Source: an uncultured Paracoccaceae bacterium (GTDB lineage: Bacteria; Pseudomonadota; Alphaproteobacteria; Rhodobacterales; Rhodobacteraceae). From it: a stretch of DNA of 64,000 nt. A model generated the notes under the pieces. It was not told the origin of the DNA, made no database searches, and worked only from the letters and a program-made list of their open reading frames with translations. Made by a program: the position numbers and the translations under genes. Below are positions 5,337-32,525 of this stretch, piece by piece. Location: NCBI GenBank assembly GCA_947500135.1, contig CANMQX010000001.1, positions 62,001 to 126,000 on the forward strand. Reading direction: 5' to 3'. Position 1 is the stretch's first letter. Each line of letters opens with the position of its first letter.

Positions 5337-7181
5337 ATGGCTGAGAAAAAGAATAAACGATACGGCGTCTGGTTCGTTGTGATCCTCATTCTGCTGGGGC
5401 TGGCGGGGTTTGGATCCGGCGGGCTGAGCGGGAATATCCGCAGCATCGGCACGGTCGGCGAAAAAGACGTCAGCGTGAACGCCTATCAGAACGCCCTGAA
5501 CCAACAGATCCGGGCGCTGTCCGCGCAGTTCGGCACACAGATTTCGTTTCAGCAGGCGCAGGCCTTTGGCATCGATCAGGCCGCATTGGGGCAATTGATC
5601 CTGACGCGCACGCTGGACAATGAAGCCGCCCAATTGGGCATCTCAGCCGGTGATGAAACCGTGCTGGACCGCCTGCGCCAAATTCCGCAATTCCAAGGGG
5701 CCGGTGGCACATTCAACCGCGAAAGCTATGCTTTTGCCCTGCGGCAAAGCGGGCAAAGCGAGGCAGAGTTCGAGGATGGCCTGCGTGAAGATGTGGCCCG
5801 CACCCTGCTACAAGGCGCCGTCGTTGGTGGCATCCCAGAGGCGGAAGCTTACGCCGATGTGCTGGTGCAATATCTTGGCGAACAGCGCAGCGTGACCTGG
5901 GCAACCCTTGGTGCCGATGCGCTGACTGCACCTGTTCCGGGCGCGACAGAGGCTGATCAACAGGCCTATTATGATGCCAATCCAGATAAATTCACCCTGC
6001 CCGAAACCCGCGACATTACCTATGTCTGGCTGACCCCAACAATGATCCAGGACCAGATGACCGTTTCTGACGACCAGATCGCGCGGATTTATCAGGACAG
6101 GATCGCCGAATTCGTTCAGCCGGAACGGCGGCTGGTCGAACGGCTGGTCTATATCAGTCAGGCCGATGCCGCCGACGCCAAGGCGCGTCTGGACAGCGAA
6201 AACATCACTGTCGAGGATCTGGTGATCGAACGCGGGCTTAGCCTTGCGGATATCGATCTGGGCGATGTCGATCAGGAAAGCCTTGGCGATGCGGGTGAAG
6301 CGGTCTTTGCCGCCAACCCGGGTGCAGTTGTCGGGCCCTTCAATTCCGGGCTTGGGCCAGCATTATTCCGCATGAACGCGGTTCTGACAGCGCAGGAAAC
6401 ATCACTGGAAGAGGCGACACCGGGCCTGCGCGAAGAACTGGCCGCCGATGCCGCCCGCGAGGTGATCAATAACAGCACCGACCAGATCATCGACCTGCTG
6501 GCCGGTGGGGCCACAATGGAAGACCTCGCCGAACGCACCGATATGGAACTGGGCACAATCAACTGGACGGCAGATATCGCCGATGGGATCGCCGCCTATG
6601 ACGCCTTCCGTCAGGCCGCCGCAGAGGTGCAGGAAGGCGCCTTTGCAGAGGTGATCGATCTGGCCGATGGCGGCATCTTTGCGCTGCGGCTGGACGGCGT
6701 CACCCCGCCAACCGTGCAACCGATTGATGATGTCCGCGATGCGGTCAAAACCGCGTGGCAGGCACAAGCCCGGCAGGACGCGATCATCGCCCAGGCAGAA
6801 GAGGTCGCCGCATCAATCCAACCCCTCACCGGGTTCGACACGCTGGGGCTGACGCCGACCGTGGATGCCGATCTGACGCGGCGCAGTTTTGTTGAAGGCA
6901 CACCAACCGATTTCATCGACCAGATGTTTGAAATGACCGTGGGCGAAACCCGCGTCATCCCAGCCGACACCGAAGGCGCGATCATCCTGCGGCTCGACGA
7001 TATCGCACCCGCTGATCTGACGGCAGAAACGAATGCAGCCCAACGCGAACAGCTTGCGGCAAATGCCGCAGCCGGAATCGCGCAAGAGGTCTTTGACGCC
7101 TACGCCACATCCGTGCAGGAACGCACCGAGCTTAACATCAATCAGGCAACCGTGAACGCGGTCAACGCCCAGTTCCAATAG
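5337..7181 (+). CDS. PpiD-like membrane-anchored periplasmic peptidyl-prolyl isomerase
   Basis: A 614-residue protein. One N-terminal membrane segment (about residues 9-26, VWFVVILILLGLAGFG) anchors a large periplasmic part with a SurA/PpiD N-terminal chaperone domain (YQNALNQQIRALSAQ onward) and a degenerate parvulin-like domain around residues 260-360. Such proteins help fold outer-membrane and exported proteins. The architecture and length match PpiD. It is 7 nt upstream of trpE, a pairing I believe to be common in Rhodobacterales. Confidence 0.88.
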   Translation: MAEKKNKRYGVWFVVILILLGLAGFGSGGLSGNIRSIGTVGEKDVSVNAYQNALNQQIRALSAQFGTQISFQQAQAFGIDQAALGQLILTRTLDNEAAQLGISAGDETVLDRLRQIPQFQGAGGTFNRESYAFALRQSGQSEAEFEDGLREDVARTLLQGAVVGGIPEAEAYADVLVQYLGEQRSVTWATLGADALTAPVPGATEADQQAYYDANPDKFTLPETRDITYVWLTPTMIQDQMTVSDDQIARIYQDRIAEFVQPERRLVERLVYISQADAADAKARLDSENITVEDLVIERGLSLADIDLGDVDQESLGDAGEAVFAANPGAVVGPFNSGLGPALFRMNAVLTAQETSLEEATPGLREELAADAAREVINNSTDQIIDLLAGGATMEDLAERTDMELGTINWTADIADGIAAYDAFRQAAAEVQEGAFAEVIDLADGGIFALRLDGVTPPTVQPIDDVRDAVKTAWQAQARQDAIIAQAEEVAASIQPLTGFDTLGLTPTVDADLTRRSFVEGTPTDFIDQMFEMTVGETRVIPADTEGAIILRLDDIAPADLTAETNAAQREQLAANAAAGIAQEVFDAYATSVQERTELNINQATVNAVNAQFQ

Positions 7182-22740: not shown

Positions 22741-23975
22741 TTAGGACGTCGAGTTGAGTTTCATGTTAGACGCATACCGCGACAGGCCTTCGGTGAGTGG
22801 ATACAGGCAGGCTTGTAGGGAATGGTAGATGTCTGGTTTTCCCTTGAATAGCGTTGCAGTGACCTTGCCAGAGTTGTCAATTTCAGGGAACCAGCCGCCA
22901 TACTCATGATCAATGTAATGCGCGTCTGCGAAGGCCCAGAGCCGTCTGTACCAAGCCTCATCCGTGTCCTGACGGTCTAATTTTATCAGCGACGCAACTG
23001 CCCCAATTGCTTCCGTCACCGGCCACCAAAACCGGGACTGTATGGCGACTGAGCCATCAAAGTTCAGCGTGTAGCAAAAACCGCCATCTTCGCGCCAAGC
23101 ATCGTTCAGGGCCTGTTCGATCAGGCGACGACCCCGGGCTGGCGCGTCCCCGTCTGGCCGACCAGACAAGTCCCAATGCTGCAACAAGAGGCGACCCAAT
23201 TCAAATGAATGCCCCGGTGTTGTGCCCGCCGGTCGGAACATTGGATTACCTGAATATGCGCGGTCAATTTGCCAATCTTCATTGTAATGCTCGGGCAACC
23301 GCCAGCCTTCGGCTGAGGCGATCTGATTGGTGAAGAACTCAAGTATTCGTCCTGCGCGGGACAGGAATATGTCCTGCCCTGTGGCCTCATACGCTGTCAG
23401 CAGAGCTTCCACGCCATGCATATTCGCGTTCATGCCACGATACGTTGAAAACGGTGTCCAGTCGCGGTTCCATTCATCGGCGAACAACCCGTGATGTTCA
23501 TCCCAATAGTGCCGATCCAGCACCTCGCCAATGTCGGCAATCAAGGCGTCAGCATCCGGATGACCGGCCATTTTAGCACTGGAGGCGGCAAGCAGCACAA
23601 ACACATGCCCGTATGCAAGTTTGCGATCGTCAACGATCTTGTCGCCATTAAGTGCCCACACATAACCACCATGCTTTGCATCGCGGTGGTGGCGGTCATG
23701 CCATGATCGACAATCTGGGCCGTGCCTGCGAACCCAAATTGATGCCCAAGGGAATAGGAATGTATGAGCCGCGTGGTTGTGTGAAGCTCTTGCGTTAGGT
23801 CATTCAAAGGCATGCCGGACGGGCCAAGCGTGTTGAAGCCCGGCGCATCGCGCAAGCTGGCCGCAAAGAATTTCAACTGTTTTTGTGCATCTGTGGCAAG
23901 CCATACCCGATGGTCAGCCTGATCCAACCAGAAGCCCGGCGCGTCGGTCAGACCCGGAATTGGATTTGTCGTCAT
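22741..23975 (-). pseudogene. AGE-family sugar epimerase, interrupted by a 1-nt frameshift
   Basis: Two frames together make one N-acylglucosamine 2-epimerase-like (AGE) protein of about 411 residues. The first starts at 23975 (MTTNPIPGLTDAPGFWLD) and reads correctly to IVDHGMTA; the second continues with HHRDAKHGGYVWALNGDKIV down to 22741. The switch lies at about 23691-23693, where GCCACC would need one more C (GCC CAC CAC). AGE enzymes epimerise or isomerise free sugars through an (alpha/alpha)6 barrel; the catalytic-region GHSFELGRLL is in the second part. Last gene of the sugar operon. It may be a true pseudogene or an assembly error. Confidence 0.8.
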
Positions 23976-23995
23976 CAGTATTGACCTTTGCAGCG

Positions 23996-26383
23996 TCAAC
24001 CTGCCAGCGGTGCGAGGTAGCGCTCACCGCGTCCAGGCAATAGCGACCTTCCTGCATGCATGATCGCATTCGCGTCAAGCCCGTGCAGATGGTAAACGTC
24101 TTCAATCGTTCCGGCCTGACCAAAATGTTCAACGCCAAGGGATTTGGTACGCAGGCCAGTGACGCCACCTAACCAGCTTAGGGCGGCGGGATGGCCATCC
24201 GTGACGGTGACTAGACCTGCATCGCCGGGGGCTGCCGCAAGAAGCATTTCGATATGGGATATCGCAGTCTGATTGCCGCGTTGCCTTGCGCGTTCTGCTG
24301 CTTGCCAGCCTGCATTCAACCTGTCAGCGGAGGTGACCGCAAGCACAGCGACATCGCGCATATCCTCGGCCAGTAGACCAGCGGCACGTATCGCTTCCGG
24401 GGCAACAACGCCGGTATAGGCAATGTTCATTCCGGTGGAGCCCGTCGGTGGTCGAAGCCAATAGCCACCGGCGACAACATCTTTTGCCAACGCGTCGGTC
24501 ATATCCCGCTGCAACTGATCTTGCGGCAAGGTGGACAGACGCAGGTATATCGATCCGCCTTTTTCGTCGCGTAGCCAGTTTTCTTCGTCCTGAGACACAG
24601 CACCGTCTCGTTGCATATAGTCGAAGCCCCAGCGCATGATGACGTCCAGTTCATCGGCGAATGCAGGCTCAAACGTCGCTAGCCCATCTTGTGCCATACC
24701 GATCAACGGGGTTGAGATGGATTGGTGTGCCCCACCCTCATGGCTGAGCGAGACACCGGACGGGGTTGCCGCCAGCATGAACCGCGCATCCTGGTAGCAG
24801 GCGTAGTTTAACGCATCAAGGCCCCGGCAAATGAAAGGATCGTAGACGGTGCCGACAGGTAAAAGTCGTTCGCCAAACAGCGAATGCGATAGGCCCAACG
24901 CGCCGAGAAATGTGAACAGGTTGTTCTCGGCAATGCCCAGCTCTACATGGCGACCTGCAGCGTGGCGGCGCCATTTCTGGGTCGACGGGATCGCGTGATC
25001 CTTGAAAACATCAGCTTGACCCGTCTTGGCAAACAGCCCCGTCTTGTTGACCCACGGCCCAAGGTTGGTCGACACCGATACATCAGGGGAGGTGGTCACA
25101 ATTCGCGCGGCCAACTGTGGCGCATCTGAAGCGATAGCCGAGAGAATTTGACCAAATGCTTCTTGGGTCGATGCGTTTGGCTTGATCCTTGGTGTGATCT
25201 GCTCATTCGTGGGGAGTGTTGCCGCGGAATGGCGACGCCGCCCATTCGCGTTGAAAGGAACCTGATCAAGGAACGCTTGAATGTCGTCTTGCGCCTTCTC
25301 AAGCCCTGCAAATGGTTCCCACTCTTCACCCGGGGCAATGCCCATATCTGCGCGCAGTCCTTCGATCTGAGCATGCGTCATAATGCCTGCGTGATTGTCC
25401 TTGTGACCGGCAAGCGGCAGCCCATGTCCTTTGACGGTGTAGCAGATGAAGCAAACAGGCCGGTCGTGATCAATCGCGTGCATTGTCTGCGACATCAATG
25501 CTGCATCATGGCCCGCAAGGTTGCTCATCAGTCGCGCTAGTTCTACGTCTTCATGGTCAGCCACAAGAGCCAGCGCTTCGTTGTCACCGGCAAAATCAGT
25601 TTCAAGCCGCGCGCGCCACGCAGCGCCGCCTTTGAATGTCAGAGCTGAGTATAGTGAGTTGTCACATCCGTCGATCCAAGCGCGCAACTGGCTGCCACCG
25701 GGTTTTTGAAATGCAGCTTGCATGAGCGAGCCGTATTTCAGTTCGATGACGTCCCAGCCGCAGGCAACGAAGATATCGCGAAACCGCGCGTTTAGTCCGT
25801 CGGTGACCACACCATCAAGGGATTGGCGATTGTAGTCGATGATCCACCAGCAGTTGCGCAAATCATGTTTGGCCCCTTCAAGAAGCGCCTCATAGATGTT
25901 GCCTTCGTCCAGTTCGGCATCCCCAACCAGTGCGATCATGCGCCCTTTGGGTTGTTTCAGCCAGCCATGGGCGGTCAGATAATCCTGCGTCAGGCTGGCA
26001 AAGGCCGTCATGGCCACGCCCATTCCGACCGAGCCGGTCGAGAAATCTACATCATCATGATCTTTTGTCCGCGACGGGTAAGGCTGCGCGCCGCCCAATG
26101 CCCGAAAGTCTTTCAATTGCTGACGGCTCTGATTGCCCAGCAGGTATTGAATGGCGTGAAACACCGGGCTTGCATGCGGTTTGACTGCGACGCGGTCTTC
26201 GGGTCGCAAAACATCGAAGTAAAGCGCGTTCAGAATAGCGTTCATTGATGCTGAAGATGCCTGATGCCCGCCTACTTTGATCCGGCCCTTTTCCCGAATG
26301 TTATTGGCGTTGTGGATCATCCAGGACGACAGCCACAGGGTTTTGGCCTCTAGTGCACGGCGTATATCATTTTGTTGGGTCAT
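23996..26383 (-). CDS. AceE/transketolase-like TPP-dependent enzyme
   Basis: A 795-residue thiamine diphosphate enzyme. The TPP/Mg motif GDAELDEGNIYEAL begins at residue 154 and ends in IIDYNRQSLDG near 191, which is closer to homodimeric pyruvate dehydrogenase E1 (AceE) than to ordinary transketolase. A pyrimidine-binding domain (GRHVELGIAENNLFTFLGALGLS) and a transketolase C-terminal domain follow. It is about 90 residues shorter than AceE and no E2 or E3 gene is nearby, so a pyruvate dehydrogenase complex role is doubtful. It starts 1 nt after the ABC ATPase gene; the substrate is unknown. Confidence 0.82.
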   Translation of the reverse strand: MTQQNDIRRALEAKTLWLSSWMIHNANNIREKGRIKVGGHQASSASMNAILNALYFDVLRPEDRVAVKPHASPVFHAIQYLLGNQSRQQLKDFRALGGAQPYPSRTKDHDDVDFSTGSVGMGVAMTAFASLTQDYLTAHGWLKQPKGRMIALVGDAELDEGNIYEALLEGAKHDLRNCWWIIDYNRQSLDGVVTDGLNARFRDIFVACGWDVIELKYGSLMQAAFQKPGGSQLRAWIDGCDNSLYSALTFKGGAAWRARLETDFAGDNEALALVADHEDVELARLMSNLAGHDAALMSQTMHAIDHDRPVCFICYTVKGHGLPLAGHKDNHAGIMTHAQIEGLRADMGIAPGEEWEPFAGLEKAQDDIQAFLDQVPFNANGRRRHSAATLPTNEQITPRIKPNASTQEAFGQILSAIASDAPQLAARIVTTSPDVSVSTNLGPWVNKTGLFAKTGQADVFKDHAIPSTQKWRRHAAGRHVELGIAENNLFTFLGALGLSHSLFGERLLPVGTVYDPFICRGLDALNYACYQDARFMLAATPSGVSLSHEGGAHQSISTPLIGMAQDGLATFEPAFADELDVIMRWGFDYMQRDGAVSQDEENWLRDEKGGSIYLRLSTLPQDQLQRDMTDALAKDVVAGGYWLRPPTGSTGMNIAYTGVVAPEAIRAAGLLAEDMRDVAVLAVTSADRLNAGWQAAERARQRGNQTAISHIEMLLAAAPGDAGLVTVTDGHPAALSWLGGVTGLRTKSLGVEHFGQAGTIEDVYHLHGLDANAIMHAGRSLLPGRGERYLAPLAG

Positions 26384-26384
26384 C

Positions 26385-27461
26385 TCAAGCTGCAGCTTCG
26401 TTCGTGTGGCACCTCAACGCGTTTCCGTCCGGTCCAAAGAGATGGACGTTTTCCGACTGGATGCGCAATCCAACGCGGTCTCCCGGTTGTACGGGAATAT
26501 TGCCATGTTCACGGACCATAAGTGGGCCCAATCCCTCGACCTGAAGATAGAGATTTGTGTCAGACCCCAGATGCTCAACCACATCCGCAACCCCAACCAG
26601 ATCGCCGACCTCGACAACGTCAATATGTTCGGGACGAATGCCAAGCTCGACGGCGTCAATTGTGCCGAACAAATGCGGAAGCTCTAACAAGGCGCCATCG
26701 GCCAGTTTAACCCCATTTGATTTGCCCTGAACGGGGATGATATTCATCGTGGGTGAGCCAATGAACTGCGCCACGAACTTGTTTGCGGGGCGTTCATAAA
26801 GGTCAAGCGGGCTGCCTACTTGCTGAATATCACCGCCGTTCAGCACGACGATCCGGTCGGCCAAAGTGAGTGCTTCGACCTGATCATGGGTGACGTAGAT
26901 CATCGTCGCGCCCAGTTTTTGGTGCAGCCGCGCGATCTCCAAGCGCATCTCGACCCGCAAAGACGCATCAAGGTTGGAGAGCGGTTCGTCGAACAAGAAT
27001 GCCCGTGGGTCTCGGATAATCGCACGCCCCATTGCGACACGTTGCCGTTGCCCGCCTGACAATGCTTTTGGCAAGCGTTCGGTCAGGGAAGTCAGCCCCA
27101 GCGTCTCCGCAGCCTGCTTGACGCGTGACGTGCGCTCATTGCTTGGATCTTTACGGATTTCCATCGAGAACCCCATATTCCGTGCAACATCCATATGCGG
27201 ATAAAGAGCGTAGGATTGGAACACCATCGCAATGTCGCGATCACGTGGGCGAACATCGTTCATCCGCTCGCCATCAATCAGGAAATCCCCTGATGTGATT
27301 GGCTCAAGCCCCGCGATCATCCGCAGCAAGGTAGACTTACCGCAGCCCGATGGGCCGACGAGGACGATAAATTCACCGTCTTCGATGTCGAGGTCAATGT
27401 CACGCAGTACCTCGACGGAACCATAGCGTTTTACGACGTCTTTTAGTTCGATACGTGCCAT
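26385..27461 (-). CDS. Sugar ABC transporter ATP-binding protein (UgpC/MalK type)
   Basis: A 358-residue ATPase of the carbohydrate importer class 1. The Walker A GPSGCGKST is near residue 37, the signature ALSGGQRQRVAMGRA near 135, Walker B FLFDEPLSNLD follows, and a C-terminal regulatory (MalK-type, OB) domain occupies residues about 235-355. It powers the importer encoded just upstream. It ends 1 nt before the TPP-enzyme gene. Confidence 0.94.
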   Translation of the reverse strand: MARIELKDVVKRYGSVEVLRDIDLDIEDGEFIVLVGPSGCGKSTLLRMIAGLEPITSGDFLIDGERMNDVRPRDRDIAMVFQSYALYPHMDVARNMGFSMEIRKDPSNERTSRVKQAAETLGLTSLTERLPKALSGGQRQRVAMGRAIIRDPRAFLFDEPLSNLDASLRVEMRLEIARLHQKLGATMIYVTHDQVEALTLADRIVVLNGGDIQQVGSPLDLYERPANKFVAQFIGSPTMNIIPVQGKSNGVKLADGALLELPHLFGTIDAVELGIRPEHIDVVEVGDLVGVADVVEHLGSDTNLYLQVEGLGPLMVREHGNIPVQPGDRVGLRIQSENVHLFGPDGNALRCHTNEAAA

Positions 27462-27473
27462 GTGTTTGGCCCC

Positions 27474-28313
27474 CTATCCTTTGACTGCGCCGGACGTGAG
27501 GCCCTGCACAAGGTAGCGTTGAATGAAGATGAAAAAGAGACAGCTTGGGATCAGCGCGAGCACACCGGCCGCCATCATCTGCCCCCAATCGACGGAGAAT
27601 TTTGATACAAATGTCAGCAAACCGACTGGGAAGGTCATCGCCTCATTTTTGGAAATCAGCATCAATGCGAACAACAACTCCGACCACGCGGCGGTGAAGA
27701 CAAAGCCAAGCGTCGCGCCAAGCCCTGGTAGCGTCAGCGGGAAGATCACCTTGCGCAGCGCTTGAAAGCGCGAACAGCCGTCCATCATCGCGGCCTCTTC
27801 TAAGTCTTTCGGGATGCCATCGAAGAAGGACTGCATCAGGAAGGTCGCGAAGGGGATGTTAAATGCGGTATAGACCACGATCAGCGATGTAAGTGAATTG
27901 AGCATCCCCAAGGAGGCTACGATCTTATAGATCGGCGCGATGATCATCAGCAGTGGGAACATCTGGGTGATGAGCATGACTGCGATGATGATTCTCTTGC
28001 CGCCGAAATCAAAGCGCGAAAACGCATATCCCGCGCCTGCCGCGATAAGCGTCGTGGCCGCTGCGGTCCCAAGCGAGACGTAAAGTGAATTACCGAAATA
28101 GGCGAGAAAGTCAGTCTGGAACAGGACCGTGCGGAAGTTGTCCAGTGTCAGCGATGAGGGCCAAAGCTGCGTACCTTCCGTGAAGATCAACTGATCCGGC
28201 GTGATGGCGATTTTCAGCAGCCAGTACAGTGGGAACAGCGCGAAGGTCAGATACCCCAGCAAAGCCGCATATTTGCCGATGGCCAGCAGGGGACGTGACT
28301 GTGCAATAGCCAT
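27474..28313 (-). CDS. Carbohydrate ABC transporter permease (MalG type)
   Basis: A 279-residue inner-membrane permease with six predicted helices and the EAA loop EEAAMMDGCSRFQALRKVIFPL. The start at 28313 (MAIAQSRPLLAIG) is chosen because a GAGG site precedes it and the longer open frame overlaps the upstream gene. It pairs with the MalF-type permease 7 nt upstream. Confidence 0.93.
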   Translation of the reverse strand: MAIAQSRPLLAIGKYAALLGYLTFALFPLYWLLKIAITPDQLIFTEGTQLWPSSLTLDNFRTVLFQTDFLAYFGNSLYVSLGTAAATTLIAAGAGYAFSRFDFGGKRIIIAVMLITQMFPLLMIIAPIYKIVASLGMLNSLTSLIVVYTAFNIPFATFLMQSFFDGIPKDLEEAAMMDGCSRFQALRKVIFPLTLPGLGATLGFVFTAAWSELLFALMLISKNEAMTFPVGLLTFVSKFSVDWGQMMAAGVLALIPSCLFFIFIQRYLVQGLTSGAVKG

Positions 28314-28320
28314 GGGAACC

Positions 28321-29256
28321 TCAGATCTTGACCAGCTTCTTGCGAAGCCAAAGCAAAATGACCGCGTAAACCAGCAAGATGCCAAGAAGCGCCACAGCGA
28401 TGGCAGAGGCATAGCCGAAGTCGAGTCTACGGAACGCGGTTGTGAAAATATACGAACTGACGATCTGTGTTGAGTTTGCAGGCCCGCCGCCGGTCATGAC
28501 GTAGATGAGATCAGCGAAATTCGCGATCCAGATCGTGCGCAGCATCACTGTGATTGCGATCATTGGCGCCAAGAACGGTAGAGTGATCTTAGTGAAAGTC
28601 TGCCATGGGGACGCGCCGTCGATCTCTGCCGCTTCGTACAATTCGCCCGGAATGGATTGCAACGCGGCCAACAGCGTGATCGCAAAGAACGGTACGCCGA
28701 ACCAGATATTGGCCACAATCGGGCCCCACATGGCAAGGTCAGGGTCGCCCATGATGTTGTAGGGTTCTGACAAAATGCCAAGGGCGGCCATCCAATGAGG
28801 CAGAGGGCCAATCACGGGGTTGAACAGCCATGCCCATGTGAGCGCTGATAGGAACGTCGGTACGGCCCATGGCAAAAAGACCAGCGCTTGGAACAGTTTC
28901 TTGCCAACGAATTGCGTGTTGAGCAGCATCGCAAGGCCGAGGCCTAACAGGAACTGGAAGCTGATCGACCAGAACGTCCACCAGAAGGTGTTTTCCAATG
29001 CGAGCCAGAATTTGCGGTCAGACCAGAGCTTTTGGTAATTCTCAAACCCCACCCAGCCGGTGTTGAATGGGTTAAGCAGCTCTATGGACTGAAAGGAATA
29101 AGAGATGCCGATGATCAGAGGGATCATCATCACGGTGCCGATGAGAAATATCCCCGGTGACAAATAAAGGAACGGCTCCACCATATAATGCCAGTAAAGC
29201 GAGCGTCGTGCCCGGGAACTCCCGGGCATGACTTGTGTTTGTTGACCCGGTGTCAC
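28321..29256 (-). CDS. Sugar ABC transporter permease (MalF type)
   Basis: An inner-membrane permease of about 311 residues with six helices and the EAA loop YEAAEIDGASPWQTFTKITLP. The start is uncertain: a GTG at 29256 overlapping the binding-protein stop (GTGA) is chosen; an ATG at 29229 (MPGSSRARRSLYW) is the alternative. It forms the channel with the MalG-type partner. Confidence 0.92.
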   Translation of the reverse strand: MTPGQQTQVMPGSSRARRSLYWHYMVEPFLYLSPGIFLIGTVMMIPLIIGISYSFQSIELLNPFNTGWVGFENYQKLWSDRKFWLALENTFWWTFWSISFQFLLGLGLAMLLNTQFVGKKLFQALVFLPWAVPTFLSALTWAWLFNPVIGPLPHWMAALGILSEPYNIMGDPDLAMWGPIVANIWFGVPFFAITLLAALQSIPGELYEAAEIDGASPWQTFTKITLPFLAPMIAITVMLRTIWIANFADLIYVMTGGGPANSTQIVSSYIFTTAFRRLDFGYASAIAVALLGILLVYAVILLWLRKKLVKI

Positions 29257-30512
29257 TGCTTTGCTTTCCACTTGGCGTATTCGGATGTCAGCAATTCTGC
29301 CCATTCGTCAGCGACGTCCTGCGCGCTGCGTTGCCCCAACAGCGCTTCCTGGCTGGTTTCCAACAGAACAGTGCTGCCAAAATAGCCCCATTGCTCCAGA
29401 TAGGTCGGCATCACAGTCGGCTCATATTGTTCGCCGTTCAGCTCGTCGAACCAACCTTTGAATTGCTCTGTCTGGAAATACGGATCCTGATCTGCACCCT
29501 TATGGATTGGGATCACGCCCACGCGCTTAGACCATATGGAGTTGGCCTCGGGCGAGGAAAGTGTCGCGACAAGATCGAATGCTTCATCTTCATGTTGGGT
29601 CGAACTGAAAACGGACCAACCCGCAAATCCGATGGTCGGGAAGGCTTTGCCAGATGGCCCAACAGGCATCGGGATCACGGCAAAGTCTTCCGCTGGCATC
29701 CGCTCTGCAATGGCGATCAAAGCATCCGGGTCTTGGTCGAGGAATGCACAAGTCCCTGAGTAGAAGCCAGCAACGATTTCGTTGAAGCCCCAGTTGACAC
29801 TGTCCTTGGGCGCATAGCCATTCTGGTACATGTCGATCATGAACTGAATGCCTTCAACAGAGCCCGGCTCGTTGATGCGGCTTTGCCCGTCTTCGGTAAA
29901 GAACTCGTTGGTACCGTTCATCGTAGCAGCGAACATGATCCAGCCATTGGTGCCGCCGGGACCACCACGCAGGCAATATCCTGACTTGCCCGGCAGTTCA
30001 GATACGGCGGCCGAGGCGGCCATGAATTCTTCCATTGTGCCCGGTGGGTTTTCGATACCGGCCTCAGCCAGCAGTTTCTTGTTGTAGAACATCGCCCGCA
30101 GGTAGAAGCCGTATGGGATCATATAAAGATCACCAGCTTGGCTGCCCATCGCGACAGTTTTGTCGGTCAGCGTCGCGCCGTGCTCCCACCCTGCCACGTG
30201 TTCTGTCAGGCTGGCCAGCTGGCCTGAGCCTGCGTAAAGCGCTTGCCAAGTGTCGGGCATTTCAACCACGTCGGGGATGTCCCCACCAGCGACCATTGTG
30301 GCAAGTTTCTCAAAGGCTTGCCCCCACGGCAGGCTAACAATCTCTACCGTAACACCCGGATTTGCGGCTTCGTAGCTGTCGACAATGCCTTGCAAAACTT
30401 CGGTCCGCTCTGGGCTGGTGATCACTTCGACCAGCTTTAGCGTCGTATCGGCGTACGCTCCGCTCGCCATTAAGATGGTAGCAGTGCTGAGTGTGGTTAA
30501 CATTCGTCTCAT
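29253..30512 (-). CDS. Periplasmic sugar-binding protein of ABC transporter (family 1)
   Basis: A 419-residue extracellular solute-binding protein with a signal peptide (residues 1-21, MRRMLTTLSTATILMASGAYA). The mature part shows the family 1 fold pattern (GIVDSYEAANPGVTVEIVSLPWGQAFEKLATMVAGG). A GGAAGG site precedes the ATG. It lies 46 nt downstream of the PLP enzyme gene; being first among the transport genes is usual. The ligand cannot be predicted; it is probably a sugar or sugar conjugate. Confidence 0.92.
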   Translation of the reverse strand: MRRMLTTLSTATILMASGAYADTTLKLVEVITSPERTEVLQGIVDSYEAANPGVTVEIVSLPWGQAFEKLATMVAGGDIPDVVEMPDTWQALYAGSGQLASLTEHVAGWEHGATLTDKTVAMGSQAGDLYMIPYGFYLRAMFYNKKLLAEAGIENPPGTMEEFMAASAAVSELPGKSGYCLRGGPGGTNGWIMFAATMNGTNEFFTEDGQSRINEPGSVEGIQFMIDMYQNGYAPKDSVNWGFNEIVAGFYSGTCAFLDQDPDALIAIAERMPAEDFAVIPMPVGPSGKAFPTIGFAGWSVFSSTQHEDEAFDLVATLSSPEANSIWSKRVGVIPIHKGADQDPYFQTEQFKGWFDELNGEQYEPTVMPTYLEQWGYFGSTVLLETSQEALLGQRSAQDVADEWAELLTSEYAKWKAKQ

Positions 30513-30558
30513 TGTGAATTTCCTTCCGTGTTAGTTGGTGACAGCGTCTTGATGCCAG

Positions 30559-31710
30559 TCAGGCTGCGCCTTTGCTGAGAGCGACCATAAAGTCCGCCCA
30601 AAGATCTTCTGCGTCCTCTAGTCCAAGGTTCAGTCGAACCAAGTTCGGAGAGACGCCAAATTTCTGCATTGAGTTCTGTTCGCCAGCCTGCGCCAACCCC
30701 ACGCGTGCGGGCAGGATCAGGCTTTCGAACCCACCCCAACTGACCCCAAGCCGGAAATGCGCGAGTGCGTCGGAGAATTTTGGAATGTCGACACTGTCAT
30801 CAAACTCGATCGACATAAGGCCGGACCGACCTGTCAGGCCCGGTACCGCATTTGCGCCGGGACTATTGATCTTGCGCACTTGGGGAATGGTCGCCAGGCG
30901 ATCTACGAACAAGTTGGCGGTGGCCTGATGCTGCATCATACGCGCATTCAACGTGCGCAATCCGCGTGTCAGCAGGAACGCCTCGAACGGGGCAAGTTTT
31001 GCGCCAAGAAGCGGAAGGGTCAGATCACGGATGCGAGAGATATGCTCTAGGGAGGAGATAACAACCCCCGCAACCGTGTCCGAATGCCCCGAGATATACT
31101 TCGAGGCTGAGTGCACAACGATATCGATGCCAAGCGTCAGCGGGCGCTGAAACAAGGGGCTGGCCCATGAATTATCGATCATGGTTACGGCTTGATGCCG
31201 TTGCGCGTGACCTGCCACTTTCACCAAATTCATTGGCGTGAAGACGACGGAATTCGGGCTTTCCAGATAGGCCAGATCAACGCCTTCAAGCAGGCCTGCG
31301 TCGTTCTCAAACGCTTCAACCGAATGATAGCTGATCTCGACCCCAAAGGGGCGCAGGATACGTTCCATGAAGCGGTATGTGTCTGGATAAACATGTTCGA
31401 CGCAGGCAATCCGGCTGCCCGGTTTCACGAATGCCAGCAGCGTCGAGGTGATCGCCGCAATGCCAGAGGCGAATCCGATGGCGGCCTCACCTTGTTCTGC
31501 ATTGGCCATCAATTGCTCAAACGCTGCAACCGTGGGGTTCTGAACGCGTGTGTATATCGGCTGATCAGAGCGACCTGCCATGCGATCTTCGAAGTCCTGA
31601 TAGGTGTCAAACGAGAAAAGCGAGGTTTGCACGATCGGGGGTGTCATCGATCCGTTAGCGTCGTCAAAGACCGTCGCCATCAGGGTTGCGAGGGTTTGTT
31701 CCTCAGACAT
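30559..31710 (-). CDS. Cys/Met-metabolism PLP enzyme (gamma-lyase/synthase-like)
   Basis: A 383-residue fold-type I PLP enzyme of the cystathionine gamma-synthase/methionine gamma-lyase family. The PLP-lysine is Lys204 in HSASKYISGHSDTVAGVV and the phosphate-contact YTR motif is at residues 53-55. Members catalyse gamma-elimination or gamma-replacement on homoserine/homocysteine derivatives. The ATG at 31710 has GGGGGACC upstream and overlaps the regulator gene by 8 bp. Its place in a sugar-uptake operon is unusual. Confidence 0.87.
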   Translation of the reverse strand: MSEEQTLATLMATVFDDANGSMTPPIVQTSLFSFDTYQDFEDRMAGRSDQPIYTRVQNPTVAAFEQLMANAEQGEAAIGFASGIAAITSTLLAFVKPGSRIACVEHVYPDTYRFMERILRPFGVEISYHSVEAFENDAGLLEGVDLAYLESPNSVVFTPMNLVKVAGHAQRHQAVTMIDNSWASPLFQRPLTLGIDIVVHSASKYISGHSDTVAGVVISSLEHISRIRDLTLPLLGAKLAPFEAFLLTRGLRTLNARMMQHQATANLFVDRLATIPQVRKINSPGANAVPGLTGRSGLMSIEFDDSVDIPKFSDALAHFRLGVSWGGFESLILPARVGLAQAGEQNSMQKFGVSPNLVRLNLGLEDAEDLWADFMVALSKGAA

Positions 31711-32452
31711 CTGGTCCCCCCAAGATCGCAATGACTTCCGCCTCAACCATGTCCATGATCCGCTCCATCACTTTGGCAGCAGCAGCGCCGTCCCCCTTGG
31801 CGACGGCACGGGCCAATTCAGGGTGCAAGGGTATCGTCGCCTGACCCAAATGTGGTTGTCCAAAAGGCGCTTCATAGATCGCGTTGAAGCCGTCTTGAAT
31901 CTGACGGATCAGTTGCTCGAATAGCGGATTGCCTGAGGCCTCGTGGATCGCGCTGTGAAACCGATGGTCTGCCGCGCGCCAATCTTCACCTGCCTCATAC
32001 ACCGCCATCAGTTCAGCTGCGCGTGCGATAATGATCAGGCCTTGCTGCTCGGTCATTTGTTTTGCCGCGACGCGCACGGCCTCGATTTCCAGCGGGCGCC
32101 GCACGGCATGAGTACGCAACAGGCTTTCTGCCTCAAGTTTCAGTGTCAAAGGCATGTGGATTGCGTTGGCAGAGACCTCAGCCGCGAGACGCGTGCCGGC
32201 CTTCTTGTTGCGGGTGACAATCCCCATGTTTTGCCACGCGATCAGCGCTTCGCGCACTTTTGAACGCCCGACATTCAGCTTTTTTGCTATTTCAATTTCT
32301 GGTGGCAACCGGTCCCCGACGCCTAGTTTGGCGCGTTCGATCATCACAGACAGCGCTTCGAGGACATCACGACTGTCACCTGACTGTTCAAGATGATCTA
32401 GCGCTTCACGCGAAGATGTCGGGCTCTTTGATGTTGCGTCTGCGTCGGTCAC
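31703..32452 (-). CDS. GntR/FadR-family transcriptional regulator
   Basis: A 249-residue regulator with a winged helix at about residues 30-95 (GDRLPPEIEIAKKLNVGRSKVREALIAWQNMGIV) and a helical FCD ligand-binding domain, with AVRRPLEIEAVRVAAKQMTEQQ and HRFHSAIHEASGNPLFEQLIRQ typical of FadR/VanR types. The start is a GTG at 32452. It is the first gene of the operon and most likely represses it in the absence of its substrate through the two palindromes just upstream. Confidence 0.9.
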   Translation of the reverse strand: MTDADATSKSPTSSREALDHLEQSGDSRDVLEALSVMIERAKLGVGDRLPPEIEIAKKLNVGRSKVREALIAWQNMGIVTRNKKAGTRLAAEVSANAIHMPLTLKLEAESLLRTHAVRRPLEIEAVRVAAKQMTEQQGLIIIARAAELMAVYEAGEDWRAADHRFHSAIHEASGNPLFEQLIRQIQDGFNAIYEAPFGQPHLGQATIPLHPELARAVAKGDGAAAAKVMERIMDMVEAEVIAILGGPDV

Positions 32453-32488
32453 GGGAAACTCATTTTTGCTGTTAATACACTACAGCAT

Positions 32489-32525
32489 ATAATGTCCCAC
32501 ATAATCAAGTTAATGTCGGACATTA
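32489..32525. promoter_or_regulatory. Paired palindromic operators of the sugar operon
   Basis: Two related palindromes, ATAATGTCCCACATAAT (32489-32505) and TAATGTCGGACATTA (32511-32525), have centres 21 bp apart (two helical turns). Both share the TGTC-(1)-GACA-like core of FadR-subfamily operators. They lie 37-74 bp upstream of the regulator start, in an AT-rich segment that probably includes the promoter. Confidence 0.75.

Follow-up and report, generated by a model that had tools for sequence, protein, structure and literature searches.

A regulator, PLP enzyme and sugar-type importer operon with an optional thiamine diphosphate enzyme and isomerase in a Paracoccaceae bacterium

In Escherichia coli, the malI-malX-malY genes form one unit made up of a sugar-type importer, a pyridoxal 5'-phosphate (PLP)-dependent C-S lyase and a repressor of their own. 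A second relevant arrangement is found in Ruegeria pomeroyi DSS-3, where an Lrp regulator and a methionine gamma-lyase accompany a thiamine diphosphate (ThDP) enzyme; we take this lyase/ThDP pair to resemble mdeA-mdeB of Pseudomonas putida. Here we analyze an eight-gene operon in a 64,000-nucleotide (nt) stretch of DNA from an uncultured Paracoccaceae bacterium (contig CANMQX010000001.1), referred to below as the window. The operon encodes a GntR regulator, a Cys/Met-metabolism PLP enzyme, the four components of a sugar-type ATP-binding cassette (ABC) importer and an AceE/transketolase-like ThDP enzyme, and it ends in an AGE-family isomerase gene. Its nearest described analogue is E. coli malXY, and the operon is an ABC version of malI-malX-malY that in one lineage became linked with a relative of the methionine gamma-lyase/ThDP pair.

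The likeness to malI-malX-malY is one of layout only, as MalY and the PLP enzyme of the window were matched by gene layout and not by direct comparison. The E. coli importer is a phosphotransferase system (PTS) whereas that of the window is an ABC transporter, MalI presumably belongs to a different regulator family than the GntR protein, and the malXY unit has neither a ThDP enzyme nor an isomerase. The R. pomeroyi unit carries a member of the same ThDP family (about 60-64% identical to that of the window) beside a PLP gamma-lyase, but its lyase is a true methionine gamma-lyase, its regulator is Lrp, and it has no importer and no AGE gene. The importer shares its four-component layout and protein families with the CUT1 transporters MalEFGK and UgpBAEC, although its binding protein is only distantly similar to solved sugar binders. 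An earlier note made from the sequence of the window knew of no described pathway with this combination, which holds in part: malX-malY and the annotated genomes with a methionine gamma-lyase beside the ThDP enzyme already describe portions of it, while our literature search for the gene combination found no paper describing such a combination.

The operon is built in two layers, a conserved six-gene core and an optional ThDP/AGE add-on. As the earlier note had proposed, all eight genes run in one direction on the minus strand, from 32452 down to 22741, in the order and with the families listed in Table 1, and a single pair of operators lies ahead of them. Three of the junctions are gaps of 46, 12 and 1 nt, the largest being the upper limit given by the note, and the remaining four overlap as called; later start codons are possible for the permeases. 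The note would have been refuted by a gene set not kept together, which is not the case here. The full eight-gene order, with the ThDP and AGE genes behind the ATPase, recurs in Pacificibacter marinus, three Ruegeria and Tritonibacter scottomollicae, but the unit that is conserved is the six genes from regulator to ATPase, with ThDP and AGE as optional members.

Core loci were drawn from a PLP-enzyme scan as the best 80 named of at least 583 confirmed, and counts of core, ThDP and AGE genes rest on tblastn because automatic gene picks were unreliable in high-GC relatives. The six core genes follow one another as GntR, PLP enzyme, binding protein, two permeases and ATPase in 60 of the best 80 loci. 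Of the other 20, contig ends truncate nine, whereas 11 are incomplete despite room, three of these being short of only a detectable ATPase match. The 60 complete cores span roseobacters, Roseibium, Hoeflea, Rhizobium, Mesorhizobium, Thalassospira, Azospirillum, Erwinia, Pantoea and Rahnella. PLP-enzyme relatives (E up to 1e-80) occur in 323 plasmid records, 228 of them from Rhizobium, and Rhizobium etli CIAT 652 has the same six-gene layout, annotated as mdeAa and a sugar ABC transporter. The eight-gene operon of T. scottomollicae (L223, NZ_CP136707) is located on a plasmid typed as conjugative and is flanked by IS110 and IS6 family transposase genes. Within the family of the window, the core binding protein is rare, being present in 7 of 248 sampled genomes. 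The occurrence of the same six genes in marine roseobacters, on rhizobial plasmids and in plant-associated enterobacteria marks a real but unnamed nutrient. We tentatively regard the core as a horizontally spread, locally regulated catabolic module. The best explanation of the whole locus, held with the same caution, would be a mobile, self-regulated module for a sugar-amino acid compound, to which the ThDP and AGE enzymes were added behind the importer in one roseobacter lineage.

Table 1. Features of the operon, in order of transcription (positions in the window)
Feature	Position	Strand	Remarks
Operator site 1, ATGTCGGACAT	32513..32523		Inverted/direct repeat; palindrome WTGTCNGACAW
Operator site 2	32492..32502		1 mismatch to WTGTCNGACAW; 21 bp from site 1, start to start
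GntR/FCD (FadR-type) regulator	31703..32452	-	249 amino acids, GTG start; Pfam PF00392 and PF07729 above cut-off
Cys/Met-metabolism PLP enzyme	30559..31746	-	NCBIfam subfamily NF004627; possible start ATG at 31710
CUT1-type (sugar) solute-binding protein	29253..30512	-	SBP_bac_1
ABC permease A (MalF/UgpA type)	28321..29304	-	Family profile matches
ABC permease B (MalG/UgpE type)	27474..28412	-	Family profile matches
ABC ATPase (MalK/UgpC type)	26385..27461	-	NF008653, 464 bits, cut-off 432
AceE/transketolase-like ThDP enzyme	23996..26383	-	795 amino acids, open reading frame; profiles, residue comparison, tree
AGE-family isomerase gene	22741..23999	-	Frameshifted, two pieces in different frames; Pfam, motif spacing

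The operators are conserved together with the regulator. All 36 loci whose GntR protein is at least 50% identical to that of the window (window included) have at least one WTGTCNGACAW site with no more than one mismatch within 160 nt upstream of the GntR gene; 34 of the 36 have at least two such sites and 33 have an exact one. The corresponding counts in control segments were 14 of 704 with up to one mismatch and 1 of 704 exact, an enrichment that is to be read with the consensus having been refined on the same loci in which it was counted. Loci with a more distant GntR (n=41) had a site with up to one mismatch in 23 cases and an exact site in two, and a related site may serve their regulators. 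The paired pattern has a single match in the 4.57 Mb genome, at this locus. A promoter-like match lies just upstream of the operator sites; such matches were no commoner there than in shuffles. The simplest reading is that the GntR protein would act as a local, self-regulating repressor: the conserved sites suggest that it would sit on the operator pair ahead of its gene until released by the substrate or a product of the pathway. The pair is co-conserved in the roseobacter-side relatives of the core.

The PLP enzyme had been described as gamma-lyase-like, which stands at the level of the superfamily and not at that of methionine gamma-lyase. It is a member of NF004627 (PRK05968; 540.3 bits, cut-off 508) but scores 267.4 bits against TIGR01328, the methionine gamma-lyase profile, below the cut-off of 549.7. 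K216, R371, Y120, Y65 and R67 are invariant in 75 of 75 aligned relatives, and by analogy we take K216 to be the PLP lysine and R371 the alpha-carboxylate arginine. Position 122, which presumably corresponds to C116 in the numbering of P. putida methionine gamma-lyase, is D in all 75 relatives and C in the Roseibium methionine gamma-lyase. D122 and the likewise invariant R125, W337 and Q353 all differ from the Roseibium enzyme, W337 being shared with MetC. In a structure model with weak confidence in the N-terminal and loop parts, the closest PDB entries were methionine gamma-lyases, at large root-mean-square deviations, and the multifunctional TM1270 was also close. By profile and residues, then, the enzyme is assigned to the gamma-lyase superfamily but not to methionine gamma-lyase, and it may have beta-lyase, gamma-lyase or racemase activity. 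Canavanine gamma-lyase, presumably a further candidate, was put aside, as no result separates it.

That the PLP enzyme is an amino-acid racemase or a broad beta-lyase of the MalY/TM1270 kind, in a module that recovers D-amino acids or peptides bound to cell-wall sugars, seems unlikely to us. The Ala/Glu racemase profile NF041088 is its second-best NCBIfam match, at 300 bits against a cut-off of 629, and TM1270 is a close solved relative. PMC5845896 describes a Lactobacillus sakei MalY that is both racemase and beta-lyase and is encoded in a PTS gene cluster. Neighbors of the D-amino-acid type include a class IV aminotransferase in L121 and an LD-carboxypeptidase in L084, but they are sporadic and stand outside the operon. 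A racemase would also leave unexplained why a ThDP enzyme was recruited that elsewhere is paired with methionine gamma-lyase.

A profile search with the binding protein returned mostly named sugar-binding proteins as the best solved relatives, including maltose- and acarbose-type ones. In the sugar-amino acid explanation, the CUT1 transporter would import a disaccharide-sized compound with a sugar part and an amino-acid part. The PLP enzyme would then cleave the amino-acid side chain by beta- or gamma-elimination to yield ammonia, a 2-oxo acid and a sugar or thio-sugar fragment, a reaction class suggested by its family and by the kept catalytic residues. The mechanism of the earlier note, in which a sugar joined to a gamma-substituted amino acid is imported and the lyase releases a 2-oxo acid for the ThDP enzyme, appears plausible and survives in outline. 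As doubtful as the racemase is a sulfur-scavenging unit, in which the importer takes up S-substituted cysteine or homocysteine, the lyase frees the thiol as a sulfur source, much like known cystathionine lyases, and the sugar label of the transporter is misleading. The PLP family has W194 and the SWGG motif in common with E. coli MetC, a sodium-dependent transporter is found near one PLP relative, and transport by CUT1-like systems extends to non-sugars, glycerol phosphodiesters for example. However, most of the solved proteins that best match the binding protein bind sugars, and no sulfur-assimilation gene was seen among the 20 neighbor proteins scanned, from recurring clusters of which not all were annotated.

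The ThDP enzyme has homologues of at least 51% identity in 71 of the 248 sampled family genomes; in 37 more, matches are limited to 25-30% identity, where true AceE falls. Although it aligns with AceE over about 750 positions, it scores 173.9 bits against the AceE profile TIGR00759, below the cut-off of 859.9, and it begins at about AceE residue 72, without the AceE N-terminus. The positions of AceE E401 and H407 are H and G in 28 of 28 ThDP-family rows. We take the E401/H407 loop (literature numbering) to serve lipoyl acylation and the N-terminal part to bind E2. Compared with the transketolase TktA, H26, H66, H261 and H473 are matched in all 28 rows and H100 and R520 are replaced in all 28. 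At R358, a poorly aligned column, R is absent from every row. H26, H66, H100, H261 and H473 are presumably active-site residues, and R358 and R520 the phosphate clamp. These residue changes make it unlikely that the enzyme feeds a lipoyl E2 or binds sugar phosphates. An AlphaFold model of the enzyme was poor (mean predicted local distance difference test score 43.7, from eight sequences) and was set aside.

An ordinary pyruvate dehydrogenase E1 that borrows the E2 and E3 of the cell would account for the long AceE-like alignment; given the late start, the H/G replacements and the profile score, such a role is unlikely by sequence, and as an explanation of the locus we rate it as highly improbable. 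Many database records label members of the family as transketolase or with a 1-deoxy-D-xylulose 5-phosphate (DXP)-synthase domain, and these are probably misnamed. Within the sugar-amino acid explanation, the ThDP enzyme would take the 2-oxo acid left by the lyase, probably 2-oxobutyrate or pyruvate, without a lipoyl E2/E3.

Neighborhoods of ThDP homologues bear on this proposal. Comparing them for a recurring lyase and importer had been suggested in the earlier note, and the lyase does recur. We inspected 20 neighborhoods, chosen not at random but from those of the 71 genomes that matched best, and eight of them have Lrp and methionine gamma-lyase genes within 1.8 kb of the ThDP gene. Three lyases found beside ThDP genes, two from those eight loci and one from Roseibium, score 565-641 and exceed the TIGR01328 cut-off of 549.7. 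In R. pomeroyi, the ThDP gene lies next to a gene annotated as methionine gamma-lyase, which we infer to be megL (SPOA0318). A table of genes enriched with Micromonas, within PMC9870897, lists megL, SPOA0318, with a value of 28.9. The recurrent lyase/ThDP pairing fits an enzyme that uses the 2-oxo acid of the lyase, and it makes ThDP function directly testable in R. pomeroyi.

The ThDP enzyme also occurs with the core importer. On the tree of ThDP enzymes, well-supported branches force two label changes for the eight core-operon copies, namely the window clade and G107 (L220). The tree has no fixed root and places L075, on a long branch, unsurely. Its simplest reading suggests that the enzyme joined the core operon twice, separately. 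Two more arrangements that place the ThDP gene next to the core are found in Frigidibacter and Roseibium. Six of the seven family genomes with the binding protein also encode the ThDP enzyme, against 71 of 248 overall (P=0.0025), and five of six do when the genome of the window is excluded (P=0.008); these P values come from genomes of one family, which are not independent. A broader proposal, on which we place somewhat less weight than on the module itself, is that the ThDP family may be a new kind between AceE and transketolase. Its members would be stand-alone enzymes for unphosphorylated 2-oxo acids (2-oxobutyrate or pyruvate) that serve PLP C-S/C-O lyases generally. Recruitment would have been by methionine gamma-lyase and, on two occasions, by a so far undescribed module of importer and lyase that handles conjugates of sugars with amino acids and connects plant with algal hosts.

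The AGE epimerase had been taken for a working gene in the earlier note, which the sequence contradicts: the gene as assembled is frameshifted and broken. Both of its pieces pass the gathering score of PF07221, in different frames, and two conserved motifs lie 116 nt apart in the window, whereas the spacing is 126 nt in each of the five relatives, out of nine tried, that yielded both motifs. The 10-nt shortfall is located near 23660-23700, and the gene length is 2 mod 3. Compared with the described AGE enzyme YihS, the intact relatives show about 34% identity and retain both TPGH and DIYH, motifs that we take to be catalytic in YihS. Against the D-mannose isomerase profile NF051846 (cut-off 600), three of them score 302-324 bits, below the cut-off, and E. 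coli YihS scores 501. AGE relatives occur in 44 of the 248 sampled family genomes, mostly away from this operon. Of 15 neighborhoods looked at among these 44 genomes, the AGE gene could be picked out in 12; a CUT1-type ABC ATPase lies near it in three of the 15 (L205, L206 and L211), a PfkB-type kinase stands beside it in L206, and a LacI-type regulator does so in L211 (scanned) and L216 (by similarity). The isomerase is likely to convert an aldose to a ketose. In the sugar-amino acid explanation, it would turn the freed aldose into a ketose for entry through a kinase. This strain would have lost that step at the operon; a paralogue whose AGE reading frame is uninterrupted remains on another contig of the same genome (L205, G000:C14), next to sugar ABC genes of its own.

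The add-on genes differ in occurrence from the core. ThDP homologues are present in nine and AGE homologues in 10 of the best 80 loci, and all of these loci belong to a subset of 37 with PLP enzymes at least 60% identical to that of the window. Loci L084 and L075 have ThDP but no AGE, and L088, L092 and L076 have AGE but no ThDP. A genome of a sister species (G291, L072), with a PLP enzyme 96% identical, has only short ThDP and AGE remnants behind its core (5786-6163). Remnants there, with partial and full sets elsewhere, indicate that the add-on has been both gained and lost. In P. marinus (L080, 15340-17724), the ThDP gene has one in-frame stop.

This distribution also bears on whether the ThDP and AGE enzymes form a separate sugar pathway, in which the free ketose produced by AGE is split by the ThDP enzyme, acting as a transketolase on sugars without phosphate. 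Sulfoquinovose breakdown by the transketolase route is a precedent, the sulfoquinovose isomerase YihS is among the closest solved AGE relatives, the ThDP enzyme keeps the H261 position of TktA while lacking R358 and R520, and a Pfam scan of the window proteins found no sugar kinase among the operon genes. We nevertheless think such a pathway quite improbable, as the two genes occur apart, the ThDP family is often found beside Lrp and methionine gamma-lyase genes instead, H100 of TktA is replaced in every row, and AGE relatives elsewhere can adjoin a PfkB-type kinase, which fits a mannose/fructose isomerase. Sulfoquinovose itself, considered as a substrate on account of the YihS-like isomerase, was rejected, because the two add-on genes are found apart from each other and neither is present in most cores seen.

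Several observations weigh against the sugar-amino acid explanation. Most of the cores seen carry neither ThDP nor AGE, so these two steps are not needed for basic function, and the co-occurrence of AGE with the binding protein is weak once the genome of the window is excluded (3/6, P=0.07). Two PLP relatives without this importer have a tripartite ATP-independent periplasmic (TRAP) transporter (L106) or a sodium-dependent transporter (L143) nearby, which makes a plain amino acid a possible substrate. Neighbors scattered over a few loci, namely a class IV aminotransferase, an LD-carboxypeptidase and an M20 peptidase, suggest amino acids, D-amino acids or peptides, and relatives of the PLP fold include racemases.

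Other relatives of the PLP gene were found in varied surroundings. In two Defluviimonas loci (L101 and L102), it has no importer and lies behind carboxylate-amine ligase and amidase genes (families scanned in L102), and in L102 an AGE gene directly follows it. The GntR-PLP pair of L106 is without an ABC importer; its TRAP transporter genes begin about 1.1 kb on, with a minus-strand open reading frame between. In L147 and L157 (Hyphomicrobiales), an M20-type peptidase gene is immediately downstream of the core. The PLP gene of L068 (G075:C1:1716769-1717929) contains one in-frame TGA, and genome G075 also has an Lrp-methionine gamma-lyase-ThDP unit about 8-9 kb from its core-AGE operon.

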